Part shown: in pieces, positions 5,832 to 48,007 of the stretch
How positions within the stretch are numbered: position 1 is the first letter of the stretch
Layout: every line of letters starts with the position of its first letter
Assembly: GCF_004216665.1 (NCBI RefSeq)
Contig: NZ_SGWY01000001.1
Coordinates: 310,001 to 374,000, forward strand
Source of the DNA: Agromyces ramosus
GTDB taxonomy: Bacteria; Actinomycetota; Actinomycetes; Actinomycetales; Microbacteriaceae
Direction of reading: 5' to 3'
Length of the DNA: 64,000 nt
The notes under the pieces: generated by a model
The model's database searches: none
Told to the model about the DNA's origin: nothing
The model's input: the letters and a program-made list of their open reading frames with translations, nothing else
Position numbers and translations under genes: made by a program

Positions 5832-6279
5832 GCGCCCGGTCCCCGTCCTCCTGGCGCGTGTAGGCGAGCCGCACCGGCGTCCAGAGGAGCAGCCCGATCA
5901 CGGTGACCGCCGGCACGAGGAGCAGCCACCCGACATCCGGCCGTGCGAAGAGGCCCTGGAACGCGCCGACGGCGATCGAGACCTGCAGGATCTGCCAGAC
6001 GATCGCCGCCGCGCGCGACCAGCTCGCCCGCCGAAGCGAGGCGATCGCCACGGCGCCGACCCACACGGCTCCGATCACGACGAGCACGATGAGCGCGATC
6101 GCCGTCGGGTACGACGACGGCTCCAGCGTGACGAGGTCGACGACCAGCCAGACGATGATCGCGACCAGCGCGACCGCCTCGAGGAACAGCAGCGCGCTCA
6201 CCACGACCAGCGCGGCCTTCACCCCACCCGAGACGGATGCCGCCGGCGGCATATCCCCGTCGGCGTGCTCCTGATTCAC
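5818..6279 (-). CDS. Small integral membrane protein, unknown function
   Basis: A 153-residue protein with four strongly hydrophobic segments (about residues 21-48, 58-82, 87-110 and 118-138) and short hydrophilic ends. I recognise no catalytic motif. Convergent with bcp and divergent from whiB1 across 200 bp. Small four-helix proteins of this kind are common and unannotated in Microbacteriaceae. Coding status is supported by the membrane-protein composition. Confidence 0.75.
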   Translation of the reverse strand: MNQEHADGDMPPAASVSGGVKAALVVVSALLFLEAVALVAIIVWLVVDLVTLEPSSYPTAIALIVLVVIGAVWVGAVAIASLRRASWSRAAAIVWQILQVSIAVGAFQGLFARPDVGWLLLVPAVTVIGLLLWTPVRLAYTRQEDGDRAPDGA

Positions 6280-6348
6280 AGCGTTATCCCATACACGGCT
6301 ATTGCTTCGATCTCTCCGCTATGCGACCATTTATGAGGCCGAATTGAT

Positions 6349-6366
6349 GCTCACAGGGACGTGAGC
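6349..6366. promoter_or_regulatory. Inverted repeat GCTCAC-N6-GTGAGC upstream of whiB1
   Basis: A perfect 6+6+6 inverted repeat in the 200-bp gap between the divergent membrane gene and whiB1, 112 bp before the whiB1 ATG. The arms are in the opposite orientation to the CRP-family TGTGA-N6-TCACA site known at mycobacterial whiB1, so I call it only a possible operator. Confidence 0.3.
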
Positions 6367-6478
6367 CGATCAGTCATGATCCTACTTCCCGAGATTCGGC
6401 CTTTCCCCCTGCAGCAGCCGTCACCGGCAAGCGCAATCGAGCGCGTCTGCGAACGAAGTACACGCAAGGAGCATCTCC

Positions 6479-6727
6479 ATGGATTGGCGCGACAAGGCCG
6501 CCTGCCTCACCGCAGACCCGGAACTCTTCTTCCCGGTCGGCAACACTGGTCCCGCCGTCGACCAGATCGAGAAGGCCAAGGCTGTCTGCGCCCGGTGCAC
6601 CGTCACCGAGATCTGCCTGCAGTACGCCCTCGAGACCGGTCAGGACTCGGGCGTCTGGGGTGGCCTCAGCGAAGACGAGCGTCGCGCCCTCAAGCGCCGC
6701 GCGGCTCGCGCGCGTCGGGCCTCCTGA
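6479..6727 (+). CDS. whiB1: WhiB1-type iron-sulfur transcription factor
   Basis: An 82-residue Wbl protein that binds a nitric-oxide-sensitive [4Fe-4S] cluster and, in mycobacteria, the primary sigma factor. The four cluster cysteines are at 9, 37, 40 and 46, matching WhiB1 numbering, with the GVWGG turn at 58-62 and a basic C-terminus (KRRAARARR) for DNA contact. The opening MDWRDKAAC and PELFFPVGN are characteristic of WhiB1 rather than WhiB2. An AGGAG ribosome site precedes the ATG. The gene faces the pdtaS-type kinase tail to tail, as whiB1 and Rv3220c do in M. tuberculosis. Its 3' end has been copied downstream. Confidence 0.95.
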   Translation: MDWRDKAACLTADPELFFPVGNTGPAVDQIEKAKAVCARCTVTEICLQYALETGQDSGVWGGLSEDERRALKRRAARARRAS

Positions 6728-6838
6728 ACCGCACCTGAACCCGTGGACGGGTGGGCTCGTTCACGTCGGGCCTCCTGAACCGCACCTGAGTCCGCCCCCG
6801 GTGGGCTCGTTCACGTCCTGCGCCCGAACCGCACCTGA
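6713..6838 (+). repeat. 50/51-bp tandem repeat, 2.5 copies, seeded by the whiB1 3' end
   Basis: The first unit (6713-6763) begins inside the last codons of whiB1 and includes its stop. The second (6764-6813) repeats its first 26 bases exactly and its last 14 bases exactly. A third, partial copy (6814-6838) keeps CGAACCGCACCTGA. Each copy therefore carries the whiB1 stop-codon context. The first unit also holds a small ACCCGT-GG-ACGGGT hairpin (6739-6752). Confidence 0.9.
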
Positions 6839-6857
6839 CCCCCACGGCATCAGCACC

Positions 6858-8351: not shown

Positions 8352-8423
8352 AGACCCAGCGTAGTGCGCCCCCTCGCCGCCGGCGTTCCCGCGCCCTGGG
8401 TCCCGACCCCCGCATGCCCGCGA

Positions 8424-9671
8424 TCAGCCCGCGGCCGCGCGCCGGACCGCCGGAAAGGCCGATCGGCGCCGCCGCGCGGGCTGCGGCACCGGCAGGATCC
8501 GGTCGAGGGCGTACTCGCGCAGCGCCGCACGGAGGGGGCTCCGCGGCGCGGCGTCCCGCAGCGTGCGCGCCGTGAGGATGGCGGCATCCGTAGCCCGCCC
8601 GTCGTGCGGGAGCAGGGTCGCATCGCCGATGCCGGCGAAGCGCCGGAGGGTCTGGCGCACCTGCGCGTGGGCGTCGATGCCGAGGGCAGCCGTGCGCACC
8701 CGGTTCACGATCACGTCGACGCGCTCGGGCTCGACGTGCTCCAGGAGATCGCCGTGGCCGCGGAGCAGTCGCGACAGCCCGACCGGATCCGCGAGGCCCA
8801 CGGCCACCACGCGATCGGCCGCCGAGATCGCGGCGAACGTGGCGGCGTTGCGGCGCGGCGCGAACTGGTCGCTCGTGAGCTCCTCGTCGCGCTCGAGGCT
8901 GAACCCCGTGTCGATCACGACGTACTCCACGCGTGCGGCGATGGCCCGGATCGCGGCCATGACCCGATCGTGCGCCAGCTCGGGCCATCGGCTCGGACCG
9001 ACGAGGCCGGTGAAGACGTCGAAGGAGGCCCTCGGTGCCGAGTACCGCTGCGCGATGCGCTCGAGCTCGGCGCGGTCGAGCGCGTCGCCCCCGGCGAGCC
9101 GGCAGGCCGACGCGAGCCCGGGCGCCTCGTCGAGGAGCCCGAGGGCGGGGGCGATTGCGCCGCCGTACGGATCGGCGTCGACGAGGGCGACCGAGTGCCC
9201 GGCCGCGGCGAACTCGGCGGCGAGGTTCACGGCGATCGTGGTGCGGCCCGGCGCGCCGGCCGGGCCCCACACCGCGATGACCTCGGCGGCTCGCTGCGCC
9301 CTCGGCTCGGGGTCGCCGAGCCGGGACGGAACGGGCACGCCGCCCCTGACGAACGCGTCGATCGCCGTCCAGTGCGCGGATCGGTCGAGGACCTCGTGGA
9401 GTCCGAGCTGTGCGGCGTGCGCGCGATCGGCGTCAGCGGCCGCGAGGGCGATCAACCGGATGCCCCGATCGTCGCACCCGGCGAGGAGCTCGCCGCTCAA
9501 CGTGGCGCGCCCGGCGCCGACCAGCACGACATCGGGTGCGAGCACATCCAGGTTCTCGAGCACGTCGCGCCAGCCGACGAGGCGGGCGACGATCGCGTGG
9601 CCGTGCTCGACGGCATCGGCGATCAGGCGGTCCTCGGTGGCCGGATCGAGGGCGAGTGCGAGGCGCACCAT
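8424..9671 (-). CDS. CpaE/MinD-like ATPase with atypical P-loop
   Basis: A 415-residue protein with an N-terminal degenerate receiver-like domain (about 1-130) and a ParA/MinD-fold ATPase (about 138-380), the architecture of CpaE proteins and of mycobacterial Rv3660c. The P-loop reads GPAGAPGRTTIAVNLA, with Arg where the signature Lys normally sits. Downstream, VALVDADPYGGAIAPALG fits the A'/switch region and YVVIDTGF a Walker-B strand. It overlaps the upstream SAF-domain gene by one base (TGATG), so both are co-translated. It probably acts in polar or pilus-like assembly or in septum placement. No pilus genes are visible here, so the role is open. Confidence 0.8.
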   Translation of the reverse strand: MVRLALALDPATEDRLIADAVEHGHAIVARLVGWRDVLENLDVLAPDVVLVGAGRATLSGELLAGCDDRGIRLIALAAADADRAHAAQLGLHEVLDRSAHWTAIDAFVRGGVPVPSRLGDPEPRAQRAAEVIAVWGPAGAPGRTTIAVNLAAEFAAAGHSVALVDADPYGGAIAPALGLLDEAPGLASACRLAGGDALDRAELERIAQRYSAPRASFDVFTGLVGPSRWPELAHDRVMAAIRAIAARVEYVVIDTGFSLERDEELTSDQFAPRRNAATFAAISAADRVVAVGLADPVGLSRLLRGHGDLLEHVEPERVDVIVNRVRTAALGIDAHAQVRQTLRRFAGIGDATLLPHDGRATDAAILTARTLRDAAPRSPLRAALREYALDRILPVPQPARRRRSAFPAVRRAAAG

Positions 9672-10415: not shown

Positions 10416-10421
10416 GGAGTC

Positions 10422-10715: not shown

Positions 10716-10724
10716 ACGCAGGGG

Positions 10725-11324
10725 CTACGGGAACGAAACCAGCACGATCCGCTCGAGCGGAACGAGGCGGATGCCGCGCACGAGGTTGTCGCGACGCACC
10801 GTGCCGGGCTCGTGCACGGCGAGGTCGAGGTGGTCGCGCGCCACGCGATCGAGCGTGCCGTGCACACGGCCGTCGTCGGTCGTGAGGTGCACGGGAGTGC
10901 GGCGGCGGCAGAGGTCGCGCAGCACGAACGACATGCCGATGCGTTCGGCGAGCCGAGCGGACGACTCCGGCACCGGCCGGAGGCTCGGTTCCAGCTGCGA
11001 GCGCGTCGGCAGCACCGCGGCGATCGCCGCCAGCGGCACGATGCAGTGGCCACCCCCTCGGCCTGGCGCGTCCAGCGCGGCGCTCATCCAGTCGCGCCCG
11101 AATGCGAGCGGGCGCACTTCGAGCACCTGTGCGTCGCGGAGCTCGACGCGGATGCCCGCGGACGGGTCGTGGTCGGCGATGCGGGCCATCGAGGTGAGCC
11201 GGTCGCGGAGGGTGAGACGACCCATCCGGAGCCGCTCCTCCTCGAGCGCGAGCGCCCGCTCCTCGTCGCGCTGCTCCTGGTCGAGCTGCGACTCGAGGTC
11301 GTCGAACAGCAGGTCCCAGCGCAT
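10725..11324 (-). CDS. Conserved actinobacterial protein, unknown function
   Basis: A 199-residue soluble protein. Residues 1-45 form a highly charged helix (DLESQLDQEQRDEERALALEEERL), likely coiled coil. The middle is mixed alpha/beta. The C-terminal 60 residues (VHLTTDDGRVHGTLDRVARDHL, then VPLERIVLVSF) look like a small beta barrel of SH3/Sm-like type, which is a pattern judgement only. Convergent with the HTH gene (9-bp gap) and divergent from the Rv3235-like gene. I cannot assign a function. Confidence 0.65.
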   Translation of the reverse strand: MRWDLLFDDLESQLDQEQRDEERALALEEERLRMGRLTLRDRLTSMARIADHDPSAGIRVELRDAQVLEVRPLAFGRDWMSAALDAPGRGGGHCIVPLAAIAAVLPTRSQLEPSLRPVPESSARLAERIGMSFVLRDLCRRRTPVHLTTDDGRVHGTLDRVARDHLDLAVHEPGTVRRDNLVRGIRLVPLERIVLVSFP

Positions 11325-15795: not shown

Positions 15796-16560
15796 TCACC
15801 CGGATCTGAAGGGTGGATCGACCACGCCTGTCCTGCCACCGTAGTCGTCCGGGCCGTGGATGTCACGGTGTGTCTCACGAGTTCCTGCCATGTGTCCCGA
15901 TCGCCGCAACGGGGTCTCCGCCAGCACCGCGAGGGCCGCCACCGCGCCGCCGGCGGCGAGCACCGCACGCCGTGTCTCGGCCAGCGTCGCACCCGTCGTG
16001 AGCACGTCGTCGACCAGCAGGAACCGCCGTCCGACGAGCCGCGAGCGGGCCTCGAGGCCGCCCTCGGCATTGGCCAGGCGGGCCTCGACGCCGAGCCCCG
16101 CCTGGTCGCGACGCTCACGTGCGAGGCGCAGCACCGGCGACGGTCGGATGCCGCATCGGGACAGCATCGCGTCGACGGGCGCGTAGCCCCGTCGACGGCG
16201 CGCGGCCGGGGTCGACGGCACCGTGCACACCTCGACGGAACCGGCGCGACGCTCGCCGAGGGCCGCTCCGACCGCTGCGCCGAGCGCGTGCGCGAGCGGT
16301 GCCGCGGCATCCGTGCGCAGGTCGTCCTTGTAGGCGCGGATGACGGCAGCGGCCACGCCGGCGTACTCGAGCGCCGTCCACACCCTGAGGTCGCCCCGGG
16401 CGACCGTGCGCGGCGACGGGCGGAGCGCCGCCGCGCACGACGGGCACACCGAGCGATCGGGCGCGCCGCAGCCGGCGCAGGTGACGGGCAGCAGCAGCCC
16501 GATCGCGTCGAGCCCAGCCCGTCGCGCCGCAGCCAGGAGCGGCCGGTCGAGGAGTCGCAT
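15796..16560 (-). CDS. comF: ComF-family amidophosphoribosyltransferase-like protein
   Basis: A 254-residue PRTase-fold protein. The N-terminal zinc finger has CAGCGAPDRSVCPSC near residues 29-43. The PRPP loop reads FLLVDDVLTTGATLAE near 180. The basic RRRRGYAP and RDQAGLG segments are standard. In Gram-positive and Haemophilus species ComF/ComFC acts in DNA uptake during competence. In actinobacteria the gene is conserved near hpf-secA, but its role is untested as far as I know. A start 6 codons upstream (16578) is possible. No other competence genes are in the window. Confidence 0.9.
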   Translation of the reverse strand: MRLLDRPLLAAARRAGLDAIGLLLPVTCAGCGAPDRSVCPSCAAALRPSPRTVARGDLRVWTALEYAGVAAAVIRAYKDDLRTDAAAPLAHALGAAVGAALGERRAGSVEVCTVPSTPAARRRRGYAPVDAMLSRCGIRPSPVLRLARERRDQAGLGVEARLANAEGGLEARSRLVGRRFLLVDDVLTTGATLAETRRAVLAAGGAVAALAVLAETPLRRSGHMAGTRETHRDIHGPDDYGGRTGVVDPPFRSG

Positions 16561-16655: not shown

Positions 16656-18335
16656 TCAGTCGGGCTGCTGGGACGCGAGGAACCGGATGTTCCCGGCGCG
16701 GACCTGCCAGCCGACGCCGCTCTGTACGTTGAGCGTTCCCTCGCCGGTGAGGACGCGCGGGTCGGCATTGCCGCCGTCGACCTGCACGCCCCCGACGGGT
16801 CCGTCGCGATCGCGTGCGAAGCCGCCGAGCTCCTGGGTCACGACGTGGGTCACGCCGTCGGCGAGTCCGGTGAGCGATGCCACGGTACTGGAGTCGAGCC
16901 AGGTGACGTCGAGCGGCGTGCCCGAGACGTCGGCGAGCCGGAGCGCCGTGGGGCTCAGGGCCACCGGCAGGCCGTCGGCGCCGCGCTGGATCGAGGCGGC
17001 GACGAAGTGCGTGCGTCCGCCGTCGGCGAGGAGCGCCACGATCCGGGTCGAATCCCGCGACACCTCGATCGCCGCGATGGACGACCCGCTCCAGGGCGCG
17101 GCGACCTGCTCCGACACGCTCCCGTCGGGCGCGAACCAGACGAGCTGGTCGGGGAATGCGGCCGGGACGGACCAGACGACGCCCTCGCCGTCGATCGTCG
17201 GCACGACGAGTCCCTCGCGGGGGTCGAGGAGCACGGATTCCTCGCCCGCACGCACGCTCCACACGCCCTCCGCCGACCGCACCGCGGCAGCGTCGGCCTC
17301 GAGTCCGAGCGCGGCTCCGGTCGGCGCGAGCGCGACGACCTGGTCGGACAGGTCGGCGATCGGGTCGATCCCCTCCCCCGACGTCGCCAGGTAGCCGAAG
17401 GTCTCGCCGTCGAAGACCACCGATCGGGGATCGACGCGCGGGTTCTTCACCGGCGGGCTCGCGAGCGGCGGCGCATCGGGGTCGACGCCGTTCAACGTGA
17501 GGTCGACCGAGCTGATGTTGCGCACGCCGATGAGGCTCGCGTCGAGCTGCTCCTGCATCTGCTGCACCGTGGCGAGGTCGTCGAAGGCGGCTCCGGCGAG
17601 GGACACGTTCGCGACGCCGCCGGTCACCGGCACGGCGGCGGGTTCGAGCTGCATGCCCTCGGGGAACGCCGATACCACTCCCGGCCTGAGCCACTCGGCG
17701 GGTCCGGCGAGCATGGCCTGCACCATGCTGGTCTGCGCCGAGTCGCGCCCCGCGTACCACCGCACGTCGGGCACGAGGTAGCGATGCGTCGGATCGAAGA
17801 AGTAGAGCGTGTAGTCGCGGAAGACCTGCGTGAAGCTCACCTGGTCGATCAGGATTCCCGTCGGCGCACTCGAGATGCGCCATTGCCCGTCGACCTGCTC
17901 GAAGCGGTAGTCGAGCGGGATCGGCGTGCGGGACTCGGGCTCCTCGTACTGGCCGTTGTCGCGAAGGGACGCGGCGGGCGTGGCGTCGATCCGGATCGTC
18001 GTCTCGTCCACGACCTCCTGTTCCCGGTCGGCGAGCACGTCGATCGTGGCGGCGGCATCGGCCTGCCACTCGTCGGAGAAGGTCGGCGTGAGGTACTCGC
18101 GGGCGACCTGGTAGTTGTTGCGGGGGCTCTGTGCGGCGGTGAGGAAGCCCTCGAGGATCTGCTCCTGCGTCGCGTCGGCCGTCGGTCCCTCGACCACGAT
18201 GTCGAGGTCGGGCGACGAGTCCGCCGGCACGGGGTCGCCCTGTTGCACCGGCCCCGAACTCGGGATGGTCGCGCACCCCGCGAGCAGCATCGAGAGCAGG
18301 GCAGCGGATGCCGCGGCGGCCAGGCTGCTACGCAT
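16656..18335 (-). CDS. lpqB: LpqB-family lipoprotein
   Basis: A 559-residue secreted lipoprotein. The signal peptide ends at lipobox LLAGC (Cys about 18). A GerMN-like domain (about 40-260) follows, then a beta-propeller-like C-terminal domain (about 300-555). LpqB interacts with the extracellular part of MtrB and tunes MtrA signalling and cell-wall homeostasis in mycobacteria. Its ATG overlaps the mtrB stop region by 8 bp, giving a coupled mtrA-mtrB-lpqB operon in the order conserved across actinobacteria. Confidence 0.95.
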   Translation of the reverse strand: MRSSLAAAASAALLSMLLAGCATIPSSGPVQQGDPVPADSSPDLDIVVEGPTADATQEQILEGFLTAAQSPRNNYQVAREYLTPTFSDEWQADAAATIDVLADREQEVVDETTIRIDATPAASLRDNGQYEEPESRTPIPLDYRFEQVDGQWRISSAPTGILIDQVSFTQVFRDYTLYFFDPTHRYLVPDVRWYAGRDSAQTSMVQAMLAGPAEWLRPGVVSAFPEGMQLEPAAVPVTGGVANVSLAGAAFDDLATVQQMQEQLDASLIGVRNISSVDLTLNGVDPDAPPLASPPVKNPRVDPRSVVFDGETFGYLATSGEGIDPIADLSDQVVALAPTGAALGLEADAAAVRSAEGVWSVRAGEESVLLDPREGLVVPTIDGEGVVWSVPAAFPDQLVWFAPDGSVSEQVAAPWSGSSIAAIEVSRDSTRIVALLADGGRTHFVAASIQRGADGLPVALSPTALRLADVSGTPLDVTWLDSSTVASLTGLADGVTHVVTQELGGFARDRDGPVGGVQVDGGNADPRVLTGEGTLNVQSGVGWQVRAGNIRFLASQQPD

Positions 18336-20007
18336 CGTGCACCTCCCGCGCGCCCGTGTCGAGGCCCGGCGTCGCCCCCACCGCGCCCGTGGACGGAGGT
18401 CCCTCCGCGCCGGGGTCGACCGGCTCGAGCGGCAGCGGCGACACGACGGCCGCGGCATCCGGTGTTCGCGGCAGCGTGAGGCGGAACACGGTGCCCTTGC
18501 CGGGCTCGGACCACACGTCGAGCATTCCGCCGTGGGCGACGGCGTCCTCGAGGGAGATCGCAAGGCCGAGCCCCGTGCCGCCGATCGTGCGCGTGCGGCT
18601 GGGATCGGCGCGCCAGAACCGGTCGAAGACGCGGGCCGTCTCCTCCTCGCTCATGCCCATGCCGTAGTCGCGCACCGACAGGGCGATGGCGGTCTCGTTG
18701 CTGTCGACGGCGACCACGATGGGGCGCCCCTCGCCGTGCTCGATGGCATTGCCGAGCAGGTTCCGCACGATGCGGCCGATGCGACGGGGATCCACCTCGG
18801 CGTCGAGGTGGCCCCCGGGCGCGTCGAGACGCAGCTCGCAGCCCTGCTCGCGTGCGAGCTCGTGCATCGACTCGATGGCGTCGCCCGCCAGGTGCACGAG
18901 GTTGGTCGGCTCCGTCGTGAGCTTCACCGAGCCGGCGTCGTAGCGGCTGATCTCGAGGAGGTCGGCGAGCAGTCGCTCGAACCGGTCGGTCTGGGTGTGC
19001 AGGAGCTCGACGGTGCGGGAGGTCGGGCCCGGGAAGTCGTCCCGCTGCCCGTAGAGCACGTCGCCCGCGAGCCGGATGGTCGTGAGCGGCGTGCGGAGCT
19101 CGTGCGAGACGTCGGAGACGAATCGCTGCTGCATCACGGAGAGCTCGGCGAGCTCGCGGATGCGGGCCTGCAGGCTGTCGGCCATGCCGTTGAAGGAGGC
19201 GGCCAGGGTGGCGAGCTCGTCCTCCCCGCTCTCTGGCATGCGCACGCCGAGATCGCCCGCGGCGAGGCGACGGCTGGTCGCCGCGGTCGCGCGGATCGGC
19301 TCGATCACGCCGCGCACCACCACGAGGGTGATCGCGCTGAGCAGGGCGAGCAGGGCCGCGGCGCCGACGATGCCCGTGACCTGCATGAAGGCGAGCGTCT
19401 GCTCGGCCTCGGAGAGGTCGTAACCCAGGTAGAGCTCGTATCGGCCGGCCGCCGGCACCTCGAGGTCGCTGCCGACGACGATGCCCGGGTCGGTGCCGGC
19501 GTCGGCGTTCGGGAGGGCCACCGACTGCCAGTACTGCCGGTCGGGGTGCTCCTGCACCTGCTCGCGCAGCTCGGGCGTGATCACTCCGCCGCCGAGGCGC
19601 GGGCTCTGCCGATCGGGCGGGGCGATCAGGACGGAATCCTGGCCGGGCTCCCGGAACAGGGCGATGTCGTTGCTGCCGGACACGCTCGAGATGGTCCGGA
19701 TCGCCGAGGCCATGAGCAGCTGGAGCGACGCGCGGTCGGCGGCATCCGACGAGTCGAGGATGCTCTGCGCGGCCGCGGTGGCGTTGTTCGACGCCTCGAG
19801 CACGGTCTCGCGCTGCGCCTGGAACAGGTTCGAGGCGACGCTGAAGGAGATGTAGAGGCCGATCACGAGGATGGCGAGTCCCGAGAGTCCCAGCGTGATG
19901 AGGACCGTGCGGAACTGCAGCGACCGGCGCCAGAGCACCGCGAGTCGACGCGGCACCTCCCGCCACGATCGAGCGGCGAAGAGTGGGGAGGCGTCGGCCG
20001 CTGACAT
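18328..20007 (-). CDS. mtrB: Sensor histidine kinase MtrB
   Basis: A 559-residue membrane kinase. It has a first transmembrane helix at about 33-58, an extracytoplasmic sensor loop (60-205), a second helix (207-233) and a HAMP domain (234-285). The phosphoacceptor motif SDVSHELRTPLTT contains His302. HATPase boxes include NLLGNAIEHG and the G-box GTGLGLAI. It phosphorylates MtrA, controlling cell division, cell-wall and osmotic genes. The gap to mtrA is 7 bp and the overlap with lpqB is 8 bp. Confidence 0.97.
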   Translation of the reverse strand: MSAADASPLFAARSWREVPRRLAVLWRRSLQFRTVLITLGLSGLAILVIGLYISFSVASNLFQAQRETVLEASNNATAAAQSILDSSDAADRASLQLLMASAIRTISSVSGSNDIALFREPGQDSVLIAPPDRQSPRLGGGVITPELREQVQEHPDRQYWQSVALPNADAGTDPGIVVGSDLEVPAAGRYELYLGYDLSEAEQTLAFMQVTGIVGAAALLALLSAITLVVVRGVIEPIRATAATSRRLAAGDLGVRMPESGEDELATLAASFNGMADSLQARIRELAELSVMQQRFVSDVSHELRTPLTTIRLAGDVLYGQRDDFPGPTSRTVELLHTQTDRFERLLADLLEISRYDAGSVKLTTEPTNLVHLAGDAIESMHELAREQGCELRLDAPGGHLDAEVDPRRIGRIVRNLLGNAIEHGEGRPIVVAVDSNETAIALSVRDYGMGMSEEETARVFDRFWRADPSRTRTIGGTGLGLAISLEDAVAHGGMLDVWSEPGKGTVFRLTLPRTPDAAAVVSPLPLEPVDPGAEGPPSTGAVGATPGLDTGAREVHDA

Positions 20008-28352: not shown

Positions 28353-28378
28353 CGGATGCCGCGAGCCCGCGGCATCCG
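28353..28378. terminator. Convergent terminator built from an inverted pair of the 10-mer
   Basis: A perfect 11-bp stem CGGATGCCGCG / CGCGGCATCCG with loop AGCC fills the gap between the RDD gene and ahcY, which converge. Each arm contains one copy of the dispersed 10-mer. It reads as a hairpin for both strands. Confidence 0.7.
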
Positions 28379-28384: not shown

Positions 28385-29866
<1,482 letters not shown>

Positions 29867-29903
29867 GCGGACCATTCTCGCAGGACCGCGGGAACTCGTC
29901 GCG

Positions 29904-34270: not shown

Positions 34271-37200
34271 CGTCGTCCCCCTTCGGGTGCGCCCGCGGCT
34301 CGGCGTCGGGTTCGCGCTCGCGTTCGGCGTCGGCTGCCGGGTCGGGTACCGGCTCCGACGCGGCTTCGGTGCCGGTGGCGTGCGATCCCACGTCGTCGTC
34401 CGAGGCGTCGTCGACGGATGCGTCGTCGACGGATGCGGCGGCCTCGGCGGCATCCTCATCGCCATCGCCATCGCCGCCCGCATCGTCGACGGGCTCGACT
34501 GGCCCGGCACCGGCACCGGCGCCGAAGGCGGCAGCACCGGCAGCGGCGGCGGCGGTTGCGGCACCGCGCCGCCGGGGCATCCGCCGCGGTGCTCGCCGGT
34601 CGGCCTCGCGTCCCGCGCCGGTCGGGATCGACAGCAGCAGGGCCGCGCCGATCACGATCACCTGGATCGTCGTGATGAGCGCCCCGAGCCACCCGCCGGC
34701 GTCGTCGGGCACCTGGGCCGCCGCGGCATCCGGCTCTGCGGCCGCGAACCGCCAGAGCGCGCCGATCTCGGTCTCGCCCACCGCGACGAGCGCGGAATTA
34801 CCGTCGAGGGCCGTGCGCGCCCTCGCCTCCGTCTGCGTGGCCTCACGGCCGTCGGGCGCCGGCGCCAGCAGCACGAACGAGGCGCCGAACTCGCGCATGG
34901 CCGCCTCGGGATCGAATCCGCTGCGGGACGCGAGGTTCCCCGCGACCGTGGCGAGCTGCACCTCCTCGTCGGTCAGCTCCGTCCGGGTCTGCGCGAGCGT
35001 CGACTGGTCGTCGAGGGTCATGCCCGTGCCGTGCTCCAGCGTGGCTCGCAGTCCTCCGTCGGGCTCGGGTTCCATGCGCAGGGTGGTCACGCGCGGATCG
35101 GCCTCCGCCTGGGCGACGACGTAGGCGGGAAGGGTCCGCTCGCTCGCCGGGGCCAGGGGCACCGCATCCGTCGCGATCGCGAACGACAGCGGAACCACCG
35201 CCACGAGCGACACGACCACCACGAGTGCACCGACGGCGGCCGCACCGCGTCGGAGCGCGTCGAGGGCGGACACCGAGGCGAGGACGAGCCCGAGCCAGGC
35301 GAGGCTCAATCCGGCGCCGGCCCAGATGGGCACGACCTGCGGTCCCACGATGGCGACGGACACGAGCGTGGCCGCGACCGCGGTGGCGTAGCCGAGCAGC
35401 ACGGTGCCGAGGGCGAGCACGGCGCGGCGCCACCCGGGCGCGAAAGCCGACGCGAGCGCGGCGAGCACGAGCGGCACGACGAGCAGGGTGGCGACGACTC
35501 GCGGGTCCAGCGACGTCGTCGCCGTCACGAGCTCGTCCCAGCCGCCCCATCCACCGCTCGGCAGTCCGAGGGCGAGCTGCCATGCGGTCGGTTGCGCGCC
35601 CCCGACGGGCAGGCCCGGATCGGCGAGGAGTCCGAACGGCGTGCCGCGGCCCACCTGCTCGACGATCAGCGGCAGGGCGAGCACGAGGGCGGGGACCGGC
35701 AACCCCGCGAGTCGCACCGCAGCGCGGCCGCTCACCGCGAGCGCGACGATCCAGCCGACGATGAGGGCGGGAGCGAGGCTGGGCGCCGCCGCCACGACCG
35801 CGGCGAAGAGCAGCGAGGCCGTGGCCGCCGCCGCCCACGACGTGGCGGCGCCGAACACCGCGAACGCAAGCCAGCCGAGCAGGACGTGCGCGATCACGGC
35901 GCCCGGCCGGCCCTCGGCGAGCGCCGTGAGGAAGGGCGGGGAGGCGACCCAGAGGATCGCGGCGACGGCACGGAGCGATCCGCGTGCGGTGAGCCGCGAG
36001 GCGGCGAACCAGACGCCGATCGCGGCGGCGGGCATGGCGATGAGCCAGAGCAGCACCATGGCGAAGGACGGCGCCCAGAACGTGAACGATCCGAGCACTG
36101 CGAGCACGCCGTTGAACGGGTCGGCCGCGCCGACGAATCCCGTGCCGATGTCGCGCCAGCCGTACGCAGCGTTGCGCCAGAGCTCGGCGAAGCCCGAGAG
36201 CGGCAGCAGCCCACCGCCGCCCACGCCGACCGAGCCGATCAGCCACGAGTACAGCCCGACGGATGCGGCGGCGGTCGCGAGCAGCACCCACCCGCCGCCC
36301 GTGCCGATGAACTGCAGCTCGTGCGAGCGCCCCCGGGCCCTGGTGCGACGCGCCTCGGCTGCGGCCTGGCGCCGGCGGCGCACCTCGTCGGGCTGCAGCC
36401 GGAGCGGTGCGATCGCCGACCAGCCCACCGTCCGCGACGATGCCAGGACGCGACGCGCGCGGGCGACCCGAACGCCGGAGACCATGGTGGCCAGCGCCGC
36501 GCTGAACTCCCCCGGGATGGCGCCGGGCTGCTTCACCAGCAGCAGCCGGATCGACCGCAGGATCGCAAGCGGGAGGAAGCTCAGCCAGTGGAACGGCACG
36601 GCGGGCGCCGGCGCGTACGCCAGGCGGCGGTGCAGGGCGGCAGCGCGCGCGGCGCGGGTGTTGCGGCGACGCGTGCGCGCCCGTCCGTCGTCGGGCGGCC
36701 CCGCGACGCCGTCGGCGGCGAACCGCACGCGCGCCGCGGGCACGACGGCGACGCGATGACCGGCGAGGCGTGCACGGACGCCGAGGTCGAGGCCGTCGTC
36801 GACGGTCGGGAGCGCGGGATCGAGGCCGTCGAGCGACTGCCAGACGGTGTGCCTGACGAGTATGGCCGCCGGATCGAGGCCGAGCACATCGCTGAGTCCG
36901 TCGTGCTGGCCCTGGTCGAGTTCGCCGGCGACGACGGGGACGCTGCGGCCGAGGCGCGTGACGGTACGGCCGAATCCGGCGATTCGGCCCGGCTCGTCCC
37001 ACTCCATGAGCTTCGGACCGGCCACGGCCACGGACTTCGCCGTCTCGAGCGTGGCGAGCAGCGCGTCCAGCGCCTCGGGTTCCGGCGCGGAGTCCTCGGC
37101 GAGCAGCCAGAGCGAATCCGCCTCCGATGCGGGCGCGTCGAGCACCCGTTCGCCCGCTCGCACGGCCTCGCCGAACGAGAGGGGCTCCTGCAGCGACACG

Positions 37201-37373: not shown

Positions 37374-37464
37374 CGGGGCCAGCCTAAGCGGCCCCCGGCG
37401 CGGCATCCGCAACCCGGCCGGGCGCGCCACGAAACGATCGGATCCCCTCAGGGCCGGCGCGCCG

Positions 37465-40368: not shown

Positions 40369-41631
40369 TCAGTCGGCGGATGCCGCGGGCGAGCCGGTCG
40401 TGGCGATCCAGGCGATCCCATCCCCCGCGACCGCCAGCCCGCCCTCGTCGGGCGTGACGTAGACGGCGTCGCCGCGCGCGACGGACGCGGCGCCGCCCGC
40501 TCCGCGGAGCCGCACCTCGCCCCCCTCGGCGAGCACGATGGCCGGGCCGTCGAGCGGCACGACCGGGGCGTCGGCCCCTGCGGCATCCGCCTCGACGCGG
40601 TAGAGCACGAAGTCGGGCACGTCGGGCCGGAACGCGACCACGCCCGGCGCCACCGGCTCGGGCTCGAGGCGCGGCGGTGCGATCGGGGTGAAGTCGAGCA
40701 CGTCGAGCAGCTCGGTCACGTCGATGTGCTTCGGCGTGAGCCCGCCGCGGAGCACGTTGTCGCTCGCAGCCATCAGCTCGATCCCGAGCCCCGCGAGGTA
40801 GGCGTGGATGTTTCCGGCGGCCAGGTACAGCGCCTCCCCGCGGCGCAGCCGCACCCGGTTGAGCAGGAGCGAGATCACGACGCCGGGATCGCCGGGGTAG
40901 GCCTCGGCGAGCGCGCCGACCGTCTCGAAGGACAGCGCGTACGGCGAGCTGCGGGCGGGCTCGGATGCCGCGAGCAGGGTGATCCGCTCGGTGACCCATG
41001 CGGCCTCGCCCGTGTCGCCGCCCCGTCCGTCGCGCAGGAGCCACTCGACCGTGTCGCGCAGCGGATCCGGCGTGCCGAGCCGTGCCGCGAGCAGGTCGAG
41101 CGCCCCCGGCTCGGGCTCGTCCTGCGCGGCATCCGCCGCCCGCAGCACCGCGAGCACGCCCGACACCTCGTCGAGCGGGCGGAAGCCGGACAGCGCGTCG
41201 AACTCCTCGCTCAGGGCGACGATGAGCTCGGGCTTGTGGAACGGATCGCGGTAGTTGCGGTCGTACGCGTTGATCGGAATGCCCTCGGCCTCCTCCCGGG
41301 CGAACCCGGCGCGCGCCTGCTCGGGCGTGGGGTGCGCCTGCAGCGAGAGCGGCTCGGCGGCGGCGAGGAGCTTCAGCAGGAAGGGCAACCGCGGGCCGGC
41401 GTCGGCGAGGCGCGCGCCGAGCGCCTGCTCGGGGGCCGCCGCGATCCACGAGGCGAGGTCGGCGTGACCGACGGATGCCGCGTCGACGACGATCGCGGGC
41501 GATCCGGCGTGCGCACCGAGCCACAGCTCCGCCTCGGGCGATCCCGAGGGCGCGACACCGCGGAACTCCGCGATGGCGGCCGTGGAGCCCCAGGCGTACT
41601 CGCGCGGGCTGTTGCCGATCGTCACAAACAT
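40369..41631 (-). CDS. manA: Mannose-6-phosphate isomerase, class I
   Basis: A 420-residue zinc enzyme interconverting fructose-6-P and mannose-6-P. The metal-site motif LQAHPTPEQA is near residue 96, with the later Glu/His ligands in LAAGNIHAYLAGLGIELMA, and the C-terminal cupin-like domain completes the fold. The start at 41631 fits the family opening (MFVTIGNSPREYAWGS). With manB it forms the mannose-1-P branch feeding GDP-mannose and the glycosyltransferases to the right. Confidence 0.95.
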   Translation of the reverse strand: MFVTIGNSPREYAWGSTAAIAEFRGVAPSGSPEAELWLGAHAGSPAIVVDAASVGHADLASWIAAAPEQALGARLADAGPRLPFLLKLLAAAEPLSLQAHPTPEQARAGFAREEAEGIPINAYDRNYRDPFHKPELIVALSEEFDALSGFRPLDEVSGVLAVLRAADAAQDEPEPGALDLLAARLGTPDPLRDTVEWLLRDGRGGDTGEAAWVTERITLLAASEPARSSPYALSFETVGALAEAYPGDPGVVISLLLNRVRLRRGEALYLAAGNIHAYLAGLGIELMAASDNVLRGGLTPKHIDVTELLDVLDFTPIAPPRLEPEPVAPGVVAFRPDVPDFVLYRVEADAAGADAPVVPLDGPAIVLAEGGEVRLRGAGGAASVARGDAVYVTPDEGGLAVAGDGIAWIATTGSPAASAD

Positions 41632-42921: not shown

Positions 42922-42959
42922 GACGGATGCCGCGCCCCATGCAGCGCGCGGCATCCGTC
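42922..42959 (+). terminator. Terminator after the acyl-CoA dehydrogenase, built from inverted 10-mers
   Basis: A perfect 14-bp stem GACGGATGCCGCGC / GCGCGGCATCCGTC with a 10-nt loop, 7 nt past the stop. Each arm holds one copy of the dispersed 10-mer. There is no U-tract. Confidence 0.7.
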
Positions 42960-42989: not shown

Positions 42990-42996
42990 TGGAGCC

Positions 42997-44352
42997 ATGA
43001 CCACCGGCCGACGTCGCACGCTCATCGGCGCCTACGCGACGTTCGCGCTGTTCACGGTGCTGGCCGGGCAGTTCTGGCGCAACCTGCTGGGCTGGTGGGG
43101 GTTCGCGGCGGTCGCGGCGGTCGTGATCGGCGGCGCGGTCGCGCTGCTCGTCGCGGAGCGCCCCGCATGGCGGTGGCGGCGGGTGCCGAAGTCCACCATC
43201 GCGTTCCTGATCATCGCGACGGCGTCCCTCGCGTGGTCGTACTACCCCGCGGCGACCCTGCTCGGACTCGCGATCACCCTGTCCACGACCCTCGTCGCCG
43301 TGGCCCTCGTGCTGTGCGTGCCGTGGACGCGGATCGTCCGAGCGGTCGGCGGCGCCATCAAGTGGATCCTCGCGCTCTCGATCCTGTTCGAGCTGTGGGT
43401 CGCGATCTTCGTGCGGGAGCCGGTGGCGCCGAACTTCACCGACTACGGCGACGACGCGCCGATGGCGTTCTTCTGGTCGCGGGGGCTGCTCTTCCAGGGC
43501 GGTCCCATCGAGGGCATCGTCGCGAGCCGCAACCTCCTCGGCATGATCGCGCTGCTCGGGCTGATCGTCTTCGGCTCGCTGCTCGCGGCCGGGAGCATCC
43601 GGCGCGCGCAGGGCATCGGCTGGCTCGTCGTCGCCGGCGCGGTCATGCTCCTCACGCGATCGGCGACCGTGATCCTCGTCGCCGTGGTCGTGCTCGTCGC
43701 CCTCGGCTTCGCCCTGTGGGCGAGGAAGGTCGGACCCGACCGGCGCCGCGGCGTGTACTGGGCGGCGGCCGGCGCCCTCGTGGCATCCGCAGCCCTGCTG
43801 CTCGTCTTCTGGAACGCCCTGCTCGCCGTCTTCGGCAAGAGCGACGACCTGACCGGGCGCCTCGACATCTGGAACGCCGTCATCGGCCTCGCGCTCGAGC
43901 GCCCGTGGTTCGGCTGGGGGTGGATCGGCTACTGGCAGCCATGGGTGGAGCCGTTCGACGGGCTCGCGGTGCGCAACGGCGTGGAGTACCTGCAGGCGCA
44001 CAACGCGTGGCTCGACGTCTGGATGCAGCTCGGCATCGTCGGCCTCGTCGCCTTCGCCTCGATCGCCGTCGGCGCGCTGTGGCGCTCGTGGTTCCTGGCC
44101 GTCGACCGGCCGAGGGACGACGCGGGTCTCCCGCTCCCCCATTCCGCCGCCGCGCTCGTGCCGCTCCTGCTCCTCGTCGCCCTCCTCGGCCAGAGCCTCG
44201 CCGAGAGCCGCATCCTGATCGAGGGCGGTTGGCTGCTGCTCATCGCGATCGCGTGGTCGACGAAGCAACGGCAGTGGGCGGCCGAGCCCCTTCCCGCAGA
44301 GCCGCCGCCCGTCCCCGCATCCCGGATGCCGCCGCCCGAGGGGCGGCGATGA
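42997..44352 (+). CDS. O-antigen ligase/polymerase family membrane protein (Wzy/WaaL-like), copy 1
   Basis: A 451-residue protein with about ten to twelve membrane helices. The large extracytoplasmic loop carries the family pattern GRLDIWNAVIGLALERPWFGWGWIGYW near residue 285. It would polymerise or transfer lipid-linked glycan units outside the membrane. It overlaps the second copy by 4 bp (ATGA). First gene of the polysaccharide region on this strand. Ligase and polymerase cannot be told apart by sequence alone. Confidence 0.88.
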   Translation: MTTGRRRTLIGAYATFALFTVLAGQFWRNLLGWWGFAAVAAVVIGGAVALLVAERPAWRWRRVPKSTIAFLIIATASLAWSYYPAATLLGLAITLSTTLVAVALVLCVPWTRIVRAVGGAIKWILALSILFELWVAIFVREPVAPNFTDYGDDAPMAFFWSRGLLFQGGPIEGIVASRNLLGMIALLGLIVFGSLLAAGSIRRAQGIGWLVVAGAVMLLTRSATVILVAVVVLVALGFALWARKVGPDRRRGVYWAAAGALVASAALLLVFWNALLAVFGKSDDLTGRLDIWNAVIGLALERPWFGWGWIGYWQPWVEPFDGLAVRNGVEYLQAHNAWLDVWMQLGIVGLVAFASIAVGALWRSWFLAVDRPRDDAGLPLPHSAAALVPLLLLVALLGQSLAESRILIEGGWLLLIAIAWSTKQRQWAAEPLPAEPPPVPASRMPPPEGRR

Positions 44353-45677
44353 CGGATCCCGTCGCCGGGGGGCACCTCGCCCGCGCCCTGCGCGACTTCG
44401 CGGGTTCCGCGCGGTTCGCCCAGGCACTCGCCCTCCTGGTCGTCGGGTTCGCGTTCTCGACGCACGCCGTGCGGAGCCTCATCGGATGGCCCGGCCTGCT
44501 CGCCGCGCTCGCGGGCCTCCTCACCCTCTGCGTGCTCTCGCTCATCGCGAGGTGGCGGGCGGTGGAGTGGTACGGGATCCTGCCGATCACGATCCTGGTG
44601 TTCGTGGGGTGGTGCGCGGCATCCGTGCTCTGGAGCAACTTCCCCGGCGCGACGGCGATCCGGGTGGTCTACCTCATCGCCTTCGCCTTCCTCGGCGTGT
44701 ACGTCGCCCTCATGCGCGACACCATCCAGATCGTGCGCGCGTTCGGCGACGTGATGCGCGTGCTGCTGGGCGCGTCGCTCGCGCTCGAGGTGCTCTCGGG
44801 CATCCTGCTCGACGTCCCGCTCGCGATCCTCGGGATCCAGGGCGACCTCGCGTCGCTCGGGCCCATCCAGGGGCTGTTCGGGTCACGCAACCTGCTCGGC
44901 TTCGTCGCCCTCATCGCCCTCCTGACCTTCGTCGTGGAGTGGCGCACCCGGATCGTGCCGCGGGGGCGTGCCATCGGATCGCTCGTGCTCGCGTCGCTGT
45001 GCCTCGTGTTGTCGGGATCGCCGACGACCTGGGCGGCGCTCGGGGTCTCGCTGCTGGCCCTGGCCGCGCTCTACGGCCTGCGCCGCGCCACGCCCGCCAC
45101 GCGCTGGCGGTGGCAGATCGCGCTGCTCGTCGCTGCAGTGGTGGTCCTGGTGACCGCATGGATCTTCCGCATCCGGATCATCGAGCTCCTCGACGCGCGT
45201 GCCGAGTTCGACGTGCGCCTCGACGTCTGGCGGGAGCTCTCCCGCTACCTCAACCTGAACCCGCTCCAGGGATGGGGCTGGGTGGGGCTCTGGCCGGATG
45301 CCGCGCCGTACACCTGGATCGAGCTCGCGACCGGCCGGCCGCATTCGTCCGCGCTCAGCGCCTACATCGATGTCTACTTCCAGGTCGGCGTGATCGGCCT
45401 GCTCCTGTTCGTCGGCCTCGTCGGGGTGGCCCTCGTGCGAGCCTGGCTCCTCGCCTCGACGCGGCGGAGCGTCGTGTACGTCTGGCCGGCGCTCATGCTC
45501 GTCGTCATCGCGGTGACGAGCTTCGCCGAGAGCTTCGCCCTCGGCGAAGGCGGCTGGATGCTGCTCGTCGTCTGCGCCGTGAAGGCGGCACGGGACATGA
45601 GCTGGCGCGACGCGCTGGCGACCGGTCGGCCGCCGCCCCCGACGGTGGAGCGGATCGAGCAGCTGCCCGGCGGCTGA
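44349..45677 (+). CDS. O-antigen ligase/polymerase family membrane protein, copy 2
   Basis: A 442-residue paralogue of the preceding protein with the same topology and the loop motif VRLDVWRELSRYLNLNPLQGWGWVGLW. Its long loop also has GRPHSSALSAYIDVYFQVG, corresponding to the copy-1 segment LQAHNAWLDVWMQLG. ATGA overlap couples the two. Tandem copies suggest a division of labour, for example one polymerase and one ligase. Convergent with the glycosyltransferase gene that follows. Confidence 0.88.
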   Translation: MTDPVAGGHLARALRDFAGSARFAQALALLVVGFAFSTHAVRSLIGWPGLLAALAGLLTLCVLSLIARWRAVEWYGILPITILVFVGWCAASVLWSNFPGATAIRVVYLIAFAFLGVYVALMRDTIQIVRAFGDVMRVLLGASLALEVLSGILLDVPLAILGIQGDLASLGPIQGLFGSRNLLGFVALIALLTFVVEWRTRIVPRGRAIGSLVLASLCLVLSGSPTTWAALGVSLLALAALYGLRRATPATRWRWQIALLVAAVVVLVTAWIFRIRIIELLDARAEFDVRLDVWRELSRYLNLNPLQGWGWVGLWPDAAPYTWIELATGRPHSSALSAYIDVYFQVGVIGLLLFVGLVGVALVRAWLLASTRRSVVYVWPALMLVVIAVTSFAESFALGEGGWMLLVVCAVKAARDMSWRDALATGRPPPPTVERIEQLPGG

Positions 45678-45707
45678 CTCGCTCCGGGCGGGGTCTTCCC
45701 GTCGGGG

Positions 45708-46880
45708 TCACTCCCGTCGGAGCCCGACCTTCAGCGCACCGAGGAACATGCCCGCCATGATCGTCTGCGCCCCGAGCATCATGAACAGGGCGGCGAGCAC
45801 GGCGGTGCGGAGGGTCGACGACGGGTCCTGTGCCCCGAACCCCGATGCCGCCCACACCGAGAACTGCCAGATCGCGATGCCCAGCCCCACGAGGAACAGG
45901 AACAGGCCCACCAGCGCACCGCTCTCCAGGCTGATGCGCTTCTCGAGTCGGTCGAAGTTCCGGGAGCGGGGGATGTTGAACCCCTCGTGCTGCGCGTAGA
46001 TCTTCGTGAGGATCGCGAACAGGATCGCCTGATAGCCCACGACCGCGAGTGCCGCGAGGTAGATCTGGCTCGACACGTCGAACCCGACGTCACCCAGCTC
46101 GACCGGACCGATCGCGAGGAGGAAGGCGCCGAGGAATCCGACGAAGAACGCGACGACTCCCGGGATCAGGAACAGCCAGCGCGGGCTGAAGATCAGGAGG
46201 AACCGGAGGTGGCGCCAGCCGTCGCGCCAGCTGCGAAGGTGCGGCGGGCGGCTGCGGCCGTCCTTGTCGAGCGTCGTCGGCACCTCGGAGACGCGGAGGC
46301 CGCCGAGCGTCGACTTGACGACGACCTCGCTGGCGAACTCCATGCCGGTGGTCTGCAGGTGGAGGTTCAGGATGGATCGGCGGTTGAATCCGCGGAGGCC
46401 GCAGTGGAAGTCCCCGATCGGCGACCTGAACAGCACCTGACCGATCCAGGAGAGCACCGGGTTGCCGAGGTACTTGTGCAACGGGGGCATCGCGCCCTCG
46501 GCGATGCCGCCCTTGAAACGATTGCCCATCACGAGCTCGTCACCGGCGCGGAGTCGCTCGACGAACGGGTCGAGCTTCGAGAAGTCGTAGCTGTCATCGG
46601 CGTCGCCCATGATCACGTACTCGCCCCGCGCTGCTTCGATGCCGCCCATGAGGGCGCTCCCGTACCCCTTCGCCGGGACGTCGACGACGCGGGCGCCGTG
46701 CGCACGCGCGATGTCCTGGGAACCGTCGGTGGAGCCGTTGTCGGCGATGATCACCTCGCCGACGACGCCGCTTCGTGCGAGGTAGCCCTGCGCCTTGTCG
46801 ATGCACACGGCCAGCGTCTCGGCCTCGTTGAGGCAGGGCATGACGATCGAGAGCTCGATCGCATCGGTGGAAGTCGGCAT
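45708..46880 (-). CDS. GT2 glycosyltransferase with C-terminal membrane helices, paralogue A
   Basis: A 390-residue dolichol-phosphate-mannose-synthase-like enzyme. The GT-A domain (1-225) has the nucleotide-binding LSIVMPCLNEAETL, IIADNGSTDGS and metal-binding MGDADDSYDF motifs. Four C-terminal membrane helices (about 238-385) anchor it. It would charge polyprenyl phosphate with a sugar for use outside the membrane. Very similar along its whole length to the gene at 48010-49179, pointing to duplication. Confidence 0.92.
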   Translation of the reverse strand: MPTSTDAIELSIVMPCLNEAETLAVCIDKAQGYLARSGVVGEVIIADNGSTDGSQDIARAHGARVVDVPAKGYGSALMGGIEAARGEYVIMGDADDSYDFSKLDPFVERLRAGDELVMGNRFKGGIAEGAMPPLHKYLGNPVLSWIGQVLFRSPIGDFHCGLRGFNRRSILNLHLQTTGMEFASEVVVKSTLGGLRVSEVPTTLDKDGRSRPPHLRSWRDGWRHLRFLLIFSPRWLFLIPGVVAFFVGFLGAFLLAIGPVELGDVGFDVSSQIYLAALAVVGYQAILFAILTKIYAQHEGFNIPRSRNFDRLEKRISLESGALVGLFLFLVGLGIAIWQFSVWAASGFGAQDPSSTLRTAVLAALFMMLGAQTIMAGMFLGALKVGLRRE

Positions 46881-47020
46881 GTCGGGGTCCTGTCGTACGG
46901 CGGGCGGGCCACCTCATCGTACTGAATGGGGTGCGGTGAGTCTGAGGGTCTCCTCGCCTCGCTGCCCTGCCGCGCGGATCCGTGGAGCGTCTGCTCCTCC
47001 CGGAGCGGCTGCGCCGGGTC

Positions 47021-48007
47021 CTAGACCGGCTGCACGAGGTCGCGGAGGACGTCCTGCGCGCCGCGCCCGAATCGGTCGTAGGCGCCGGAACGCCACTCAC
47101 GCAGGACGGGTGCGATGCGGCGCGCGCGTGCGGCGGGAATGGCTCCGCGCATCACCTCGTGGGCGAGCTTTCCACGCACCGCGGCCTCCGTGTGCGACGG
47201 CTCGTCCGCGATCGCGGGCAGGCGGTCGGCGAGCTCGATTGCACGGCGGAGCAGCTTCGCATTGCGATCCGTGCGGGGCTCGCGAAGGCGCGCCAGCCTC
47301 CCCCCGGCACCGAGTCGCTCGACGCCGATCTGGTTCGCGCCGTGCTGCCGGTAGTCGATCACCGGCTCGGGGATGACGGCGATCCCGCCACCGACGGCGG
47401 CCACGACCGCGAGCCATTCGTCGTGCACCCACGACGCGGGGAACGGCGCCGCGCGGTCCACCAGGGAGCGCGTCACCATCGTCGTGGCACCCGTGACCAG
47501 GTTGCGCTTGAGCAGCTCGTCGAGGGCGGCATCCGACTCGAGCCTGTCGCGCACCGCGGCGTCCACGCCCAGCGTCGCGAACAGCGAGGCGTGGAGGTCG
47601 GCGCCCTCGGCATCGACCAGGCGCGCGTCGCCCGCCACGAGCTCGACGGCGGGGCGGCGCTCGAGCGCGGCGAGGGCCCGCGAGATGCGATCGGGGTGCC
47701 AGACGTCGTCCTGGTCGGCCAGGGCGATGACGTCGCCGGATGCCGCGAGCAGCGCCTGCGCGAAGTTGCCGGTGACACCGAGCGGCGCGGGGTTGCGGAG
47801 CACGACGAGCGCAGGGGCAGCGGCGCCCGAGGCGCGGCGATCGTCGAGCAGCCCGATCGCCAGTTCCACGGTGCCGTCCGAGGAGGCGTCGTCGGACAGG
47901 ATGATCTCGTCGACGGGACGCGACTGGTCGAGGATGCTCTCGAGCTGCGCTCCGAGGAAGCGCGCGCCGTTGCGCGTTGCCAGCGCGACCGAGACCGTCG
48001 TGGCCAC
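47021..48007 (-). CDS. GT2 glycosyltransferase, rhamnosyltransferase-like
   Basis: A 328-residue soluble GT-A enzyme with VSVALATRNGARFL, IILSDDASSDGT and the DxD region ALADQDDVWHPDR. The C-terminal helical domain has RLREPRTDRNAKLLRRAI. The GTG start at 48007 comes 2 bp after the stop of the upstream paralogue B, so the two are coupled. Rhamnosyl specificity is a family-level guess. It lies between the two duplicated DPM-like genes. Confidence 0.85.
   Translation of the reverse strand: MATTVSVALATRNGARFLGAQLESILDQSRPVDEIILSDDASSDGTVELAIGLLDDRRASGAAAPALVVLRNPAPLGVTGNFAQALLAASGDVIALADQDDVWHPDRISRALAALERRPAVELVAGDARLVDAEGADLHASLFATLGVDAAVRDRLESDAALDELLKRNLVTGATTMVTRSLVDRAAPFPASWVHDEWLAVVAAVGGGIAVIPEPVIDYRQHGANQIGVERLGAGGRLARLREPRTDRNAKLLRRAIELADRLPAIADEPSHTEAAVRGKLAHEVMRGAIPAARARRIAPVLREWRSGAYDRFGRGAQDVLRDLVQPV

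Follow-up and report, generated by a model that had tools for sequence, protein, structure and literature searches.

The question raised by this locus is why a single 10-letter word, CGGATGCCGC, is so frequent on both strands of a 64-kb stretch of the Agromyces ramosus genome (contig NZ_SGWY01000001.1, positions 310,001 to 374,000), which was analyzed over its full length and is called the window below. An initial annotation of the window had counted 30 copies in about 41.5 kb and had suggested a signal resembling the DNA uptake sequences (DUS) of other bacteria. We found no description of such a word, or of uptake sequences in these bacteria, in our searches of open-licence papers, and we know of no uptake sequences outside Neisseriaceae and Pasteurellaceae. 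Judged from genome sequence alone, CGGATGCCGC looks like a DUS on most of the genomic traits examined, whereas a DUS proper is defined by its functions, namely an uptake preference and a receptor. We think it probable, at roughly 0.6, that the word, with its longer form CGGATGCCGCGG, is the DUS-like word of this Agromyces and one dialect of a set that extends over much of Microbacteriaceae and into some members of a second family of the order.

The window contained 32 exact matches of CGGATGCCGC (17 forward and 15 reverse), and 30 of them were located within 6234-47746, as annotated. In 100 dinucleotide shuffles the expectation for the window was 0.98 and the maximum was 4, which agrees with the annotated chance value of less than one. 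The annotated count, however, understated the abundance of the word. That is, the 3.84-Mb genome (six contigs) had 2387 copies (1198 forward and 1189 reverse), and the reversed word, used as a control, had 47 (28 and 19). About one-eighth of the genome was examined letter by letter, and the remaining genome counts were obtained by pattern searches. The sample for the former, 464 kb or 12% of the genome, was made up of the window together with 20 stretches, each 20 kb long. Comparison with a third-order Markov model, which had been set beforehand as a refutation test, gave 291 copies in this sample against 12.6 expected, and the expectations under orders 0 to 5 ranged from 5 to 64. Among the 10-mers with at least 15 copies in the sample, CGGATGCCGC had the highest score.

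The preferred extended form, CGGATGCCGCGG, was found 115 times in the same sample (1.5 expected). When the copies of CGGATGCCGC were aligned, a purine was favored at position -1, and G was favored at +10 (0.76) and +11 (0.54). Beyond these positions the aligned copies of the sample shared little flank signal. Because the flanking signal ends there, we class CGGATGCCGC as a word rather than a repeat element, and a dispersed repeat like the repetitive extragenic palindromes was rejected for the lack of homologous flanks. One-letter variants changed at positions 1, 7, 9 and 10 were enriched, and those changed in GGAT (positions 2-5) were not, which indicates a sharp core.

To see the constraint at the DNA level, the copies were assigned to open reading frames (ORFs) called approximately by a simple picker based on the G+C content of third codon positions (GC3), with a coding fraction of 0.80. 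The 200 copies in called ORFs occupied all six classes of frame and orientation (80, 64, 21, 16, 10 and 9), so that codon-pair bias in one frame only is excluded as an explanation. The other 91 copies were outside called ORFs, at 0.98 per kb against 0.54 per kb inside; this count is an upper bound, because the picker covers 80% of the DNA and some of the 91 will be in missed genes. When synonymous codons were shuffled within each gene, which preserves both the protein and the codon use, 60 shuffles gave 19.4 +/- 3.6 copies (largest 27), about one-tenth of the 200 seen. Moreover, 80 of the 115 [ASTP]-Asp-Ala-Ala tetrapeptides were spelled by CGGATGCCGC, using GAT, and GAT accounts for 19% of Asp codons and GCA for 6% of Ala codons. 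These results support what the initial annotation had proposed from the varied reading frames and the rare codons GAT and GCA, namely that selection acts on DNA rather than on protein.

It had also proposed that the two orientations are equally common, and this was the case both in the sample (146 forward and 145 reverse) and in the genome-wide counts given above. No relation to the GC skew of the 21 stretches was found (149 against 142). We looked for even spacing of the copies in the sample, and the gaps looked random. Taken together, a genome-wide, DNA-level and strand-neutral signal in A. ramosus is strongly supported.

The copies also form pairs. Among neighboring copies at most 30 bases apart in the sample, 22 pairs were in forward-reverse order, which is the order of a stem-loop, 2 were reverse-forward, 2 forward-forward and 1 reverse-reverse. 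In the 400 kb outside the window the corresponding numbers were 19, 2, 2 and 1, where about 1.7 of each would be expected. The pairs of the window are the following.

23943-23984 (23943-23952 forward, 23975-23984 reverse): inverted pair, predicted stem-loop, in a called ORF
28353-28378 (28353-28362 forward, 28369-28378 reverse): inverted pair, terminator-like stem-loop, between convergent gene ends
42924-42957 (42924-42933 forward, 42948-42957 reverse): inverted pair, predicted stem-loop, between divergent genes as called

The second pair is enclosed by the ends of a gene at 27506-28348 (forward) and of ahcY at 28385-29875 (reverse). As for the 22 stem-loop pairs as a whole, 10 were within called ORFs, 7 between co-directional genes, 2 between convergent and 1 between divergent genes, and 2 were unassigned. 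Because the pairs fall in ORFs and in other gene arrangements, a role as terminators would account for them in part at most.

We then compared the word among relatives in a survey of 299 Microbacteriaceae genomes from 85 genera, in which the figures per genus come from one first-listed genome each. The genus assignment is supported by the leucyl-tRNA synthetase of a congener, which matched six named Agromyces at 87-95% and no other genus above 79%. CGGATGCCGC was enriched in all 60 Agromyces genomes, A. ramosus included, with 140 to 3082 copies; the least enriched was G040 (279 against 73 of the control). The ratio of CGGATGCCGC to the reversed control was at least threefold in 47 of the 85 genera, tenfold in 25 and below 1.5-fold in 18. 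In another set of 248 genomes, 230 of which are outside the family, the word was mostly near the control in those 230; small exceptions were G567 (59/6), G575 (152/52) and G554 (104/59). In a 4.1-kb segment aligned among 26 Agromyces (the window and 25 of 29 loci, four being dropped by length), there were 20 distinct word sites, of which 8 were confined to one species and one was shared by 19. That is, word sites come and go among Agromyces species, with patchy turnover.

Microbacteriaceae lineages poor in CGGATGCCGC often have related words, and these dialects are lineage-bound. Ten genomes of the family besides A. ramosus were sampled at 100-120 kb, four of them (G158, G168, G176 and G145) being picked after hints in 20-kb stretches of 20 genomes. 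In Agromyces, G036 had CGGATGCCTCGG (32 copies against 0.16 expected) with a second form CGGATGTCTC, G041 had CGGATGCCTC (21 against 0.9), and G006 had both CGGATGCCGC (18 against 2) and CGGATGACGC (17 against 1.1). In other genera, the words were CGGATGCGC in G158 (43 against 4.3), GTGGATGCGG in G176 (23 against 0.9), AGGAGGCGCGG in G168 (27 against 0.6) and GGCGCAGGAGC in G145 (23 against 0.7). In a second family of the order, f18, G369 had GTATGCCG (72 against 3.3). The dialect words exceeded synonymous shuffles in 7 of 7 sets.

Three of the dialects were confirmed when whole genomes were counted. All 60 Agromyces genomes contained CGGATGCCTC, in 70-1390 copies (control 0-7), and it outnumbered CGGATGCCGC in G036, G041, G016, G028, G001 and G023, among others. 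In genus g36, each of the six genomes had 513-952 copies of AGGAGGCGCG, against 29-51 for the controls. Counts in other genomes were low, G114 being a weak case (216 against 75). For GTATGCCGYG, three f18 genera together supplied nine genomes with 226-1462 copies each (controls 5-39). None of the 239 other genomes exceeded 42 copies, and another nine f18 genomes lacked the word.

Three of the ten family genomes sampled at 100-120 kb had no convincing word. In G179 the top z was only 7.9 and nothing was found, G277 had a weak CCGGAGGCGCG (12 against 1.1), and G280 had only repeat-like words, in 3 of 6 stretches. A candidate dialect of G353 (family f2) was rejected since the word belongs to longer repeats. 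As separate observations, a longer repeat around GGTGGCGGGATTGCATGATCAC forms dispersed clusters at loci L165, L242, L243 and L244 of G353, and repeat-like words GCTCAGGGACC and GCTCAGGGAACG are present at L041 and L235-L239 (G280) and at L055 (G080), in genomes of two genera.

Single named loci of 22 kb, from a scan of 80 loci that omitted the 11 shorter than 12 kb, gave hints of low power: GGATGCGC in Leifsonia Root227, GGATGCCCG in Subtercola, CGGATGCTC in Herbiconiux gentiana, CAGGATCC in Frondihabitans and GGGAGGCGCC in Agrococcus. In many other single stretches of 20-22 kb nothing clear was found, with little power. One locus of Demequina phytophila (L157) had GGACGATGC 14 times in 22 kb against 0.7, possibly a dialect outside Microbacteriaceae, again at low power.

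If the word serves DNA uptake, the genomes should offer machinery for it. ComEC (PF03772) was found in 293 of the 299 Microbacteriaceae genomes, A. ramosus included; being near-universal, it was uninformative and was rejected as a predictor of the word. In an Agromyces congener, and only there, we saw comEA (SLBB, HHH_3) between comEC and leuS. A. ramosus has three T2SSE matches above the cut-off, which are strong pilus/secretion ATPase matches. One adjoins T2SSF- and TadE/G-like genes, and the neighborhood of another contains a prepilin peptidase and an RcpC/CpaB match that is weak and under its cut-off. At L082 of A. ramosus (about 7.6-13.1 kb) a Tad-like cluster has a GC3 of 0.76-0.83, against at least 0.9 in many neighbors, and was perhaps acquired. 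PilB-class matches (E below 1e-100) were found in 45 of the 85 first-listed genera. The PilB-class ATPase was also tried and rejected as a predictor, the median word ratio being 6.6 with it and 2.4 without it (p = 0.007). Its presence is patchy within genera: Agromyces G040 has one, and five other sampled Agromyces have none. Among actinobacteria, two Microbacteriaceae, Rhodoluna lacicola and Aurantimicrobium photophilum, are reported to be naturally transformable (PMC11577799), as is Micrococcus luteus by way of Flp pili (PMC6370729).

We propose the following mechanism. The cell would take up free DNA via Flp/Tad pili, ComEA and ComEC, and a putative receptor in this machinery would prefer DNA with the local word. 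Because word-bearing DNA would be more often taken up and recombined into the genomes of relatives, the word would spread by molecular drive. It would persist where protein and RNA constraints permit, that is, in several frames, between genes, and in inverted pairs that possibly act as terminators. When the specificity of the receptor drifts, the word would be replaced site by site, and dialects would arise. In the widest form of this proposal, Actinobacteria would have evolved independently a dialect-forming DNA uptake sequence system, which would extend over much of Microbacteriaceae and some of one or more other families. Its receptor, associated with Flp/Tad pili or with ComEA, would shift in specificity even between species of one genus, and each lineage would prefer the DNA of its own kin. 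We regard the chances for and against this wider proposal as evenly balanced.

The uptake-like reading of the initial annotation was the best of those it offered, and it gains from the present results because lineage-bound dialects and the stem-loop pairs seen in A. ramosus are traits reported for the DUS of Neisseriaceae. The presence of ComEC does not predict the word. Several observations count against the reading. G179, in which we found no word, has ComEC as well. No PilB-class ATPase was found among the ATPase matches of A. ramosus, the best match being of another class, and the association of PilB with the word is weak (p = 0.07 on 68 genera after small controls were dropped). Aurantimicrobium includes a transformable species, but the 22 kb examined from this genus showed no word; such a length has little power. 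Stem-loop pairing was strong in A. ramosus only: the other samples with GGATGCC, when pooled, had 10 forward-reverse, 0 reverse-forward, 4 forward-forward and 8 reverse-reverse pairs, and the sample of Agromyces G036 had no stem-loop pairs. The dialect word of G036 was distributed 41/18 on the strands of its 120-kb sample (p = 0.004), a bias that was unrelated to GC skew, the genome-wide numbers being 712/678. Finally, highly iterated palindrome 1 (HIP1) of cyanobacteria has alternates too, and it is not an uptake word (PMC4390886).

The main rival is indeed a HIP1-like, methylation-linked word, which would be made or kept by a DNA methyltransferase or by methyl-directed repair reading the core, with alternates where the specificity changed. 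HIP1 is comparable in copy density, and methyltransferases match its alternates (PMC4390886); the intolerant core GGATG could be an enzyme site. The HIPs described in that source are palindromes, however, and no main word here equals its own reverse complement. In addition, GGATG is absent from some dialects (AGGAGGCGCGG and GTATGCCG), and stem-loop pairing of a non-palindromic word would not be expected from such an origin, which we consider unlikely. Strand-neutral copies spaced roughly at random over the genome would also suit the binding site of a nucleoid or recombination protein that organizes the chromosome or recombines DNA outside uptake. A change of dialect between species of one genus would then require a protein that binds at thousands of sites to change rapidly, and stem-loop pairs are not expected of such a site either; we find this quite improbable.

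Chi-type recombination signals and FtsK-orienting polar sequences (KOPS) are short over-represented words of high copy number, and they show strand skew along the replichore. The initial annotation had listed this type of site, but the absence of skew by strand (146/145) and by GC skew (149/142) disfavors it, and even though Chi varies between species (PMC3630211), we give it very little weight. Arms of transcription terminators, another alternative listed there, or a dispersed repeat spread through the genome could be suspected from the 22 stem-loop pairs in 464 kb, one of which (28353-28378) is exactly between convergent genes. As 247 of the 291 copies are outside such pairs and most are intragenic, terminator arms are disfavored as the sole role, and the shared sequence ends two or three letters beyond the word, against a dispersed repeat; this explanation is likewise highly improbable. 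That the word is a mere by-product of composition, codon use or codon-pair bias is barely credible. High-GC genomes do have skewed words, and 120 kb of the control genomes G179, G277 and G280, which have no dialect, yielded z values of about 8 to 11, but such an origin is refuted by the Markov models, none of which comes near the 291 copies, and by the synonymous shuffles, exceeded tenfold with six frames occupied. If the uptake-sequence reading is wrong, CGGATGCCGC is still a very strong genome-wide word that lacks an explanation.

The remaining copies of CGGATGCCGC in the window and the features around them are as follows.

3842-3851, reverse: copy in aroA
4809-4818, forward: copy outside called ORFs
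6234-6243, forward: copy
8581-8590, reverse: copy
10768-10777, forward: copy
15796-16557, reverse: ComF-like gene, start approximate, containing two copies
16145-16154, forward: copy in the ComF-like gene
16304-16313, reverse: copy in the ComF-like gene
18305-18314, forward: copy in lpqB
18452-18461, reverse: copy at the lpqB start
19739-19748, reverse: copy
22666-22675, forward: copy
25176-25185, forward: copy
31540-31549, forward: copy in a phosphomannomutase gene
33156-33165, reverse: copy
34723-34732, reverse: copy
37400-37409, reverse: copy
40377-40386, forward: copy in manA
40580-40589, reverse: copy in manA
40962-40971, forward: copy in manA
41126-41135, reverse: copy in manA, at the site common to 19 of 26 aligned Agromyces
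41472-41481, forward: copy in manA
44323-44332, forward: copy in an O-antigen-ligase-like gene
44616-44625, reverse: copy outside called ORFs
45295-45304, forward: copy
47526-47535, reverse: copy
47737-47746, forward: last copy of the window
47747-64000: copy-free segment, mostly a surface-polysaccharide/glycosyltransferase cluster, poorly conserved among Agromyces

The comF gene of the initial annotation corresponds to a ComF-like frame that matched TIGR00201 with E = 1.4e-13, although its 51 bits are under the model cut-off of 234. In manA (40369-41631), five copies are present in one gene, in both orientations. In the segment 47747-64000, no copy was found against about 10 expected (P = 4e-5, for one segment and a contrast picked post hoc). 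The region 48.2-63.4 kb had only piecemeal matches, the longest 5.2 kb, in the 12 other Agromyces examined, and the region 40.3-44.4 kb had matches in 60 of 60 Agromyces, some of them partial. This pattern, seen post hoc in one segment, fits the word accumulating in shared DNA and being missing from exchanged DNA.

Other short words were also seen. The HIP1 octamer of cyanobacteria, GCGATCGC, has 22 sites in the window, for example at 16806, 21259 and 52089, and CGCGATCGCG has 10 sites (20 on both strands against a third-order expectation of 3.2, about sixfold). In A. ramosus, 8-base units (GTGCGGTT with its relatives, and CACCAGAG/CACCACAG) form arrays at about 2.8-3.1 kb of L016 and 1.0-1.5 kb of L018; these arrays are the source of the second-best 12-mers of the sample.

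If the uptake-sequence reading is true, uptake sequences arose independently in Gram-positive bacteria, and the 60 sequenced Agromyces with several dialects would offer a fresh test of how such words originate, spread and switch. The words, up to thousands of self-tags per genome, would predict which members of this large family, associated with soil and plants, exchange genes with each other, and adding the right word might render transformable those members that are hard to transform.

Lastly, the word can be compared with known systems. Like Agromyces, Micrococcus luteus is an actinobacterium with comEA, comEC and Tad clusters, but no uptake sequence is named for it in the available part of that report (PMC6370729). 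Like HIP1 of cyanobacteria, the word is short, very abundant, and replaced by alternates in some lineages; unlike HIP1, which is a palindrome linked to methyltransferases, the words here are non-palindromic (PMC4390886). Uptake sequences are described for Pasteurellaceae (PMC12616744) and Neisseriaceae (PMC3630211). With the uptake signal sequences of Pasteurellaceae, CGGATGCCGC shares the character of a short genome-wide self word, there tied to competence (PMC12616744; PMC7811141), although the sequence is different and the flank signal of CGGATGCCGC stops at -1, +10 and +11. From the DUS of Neisseriaceae it differs in sequence, in phylum, in high GC content, and in that A. ramosus has Flp/Tad and not classical type IV pili, the receptor of Neisseria being ComP. 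Copy numbers of the Neisseriaceae DUS run from 943 to nearly 6000, and inverted pairs, overlapping dyads and mixtures of dialects are reported for them (PMC3630211). The word of A. ramosus resembles them as a non-palindromic word of 10-12 letters with a thousand or thousands of copies in and between genes, with inverted pairs (strong in this genome, weak in the other samples) and overlapping dyads, and with dialects that keep a core and have minor dialects mixed in (PMC3630211).

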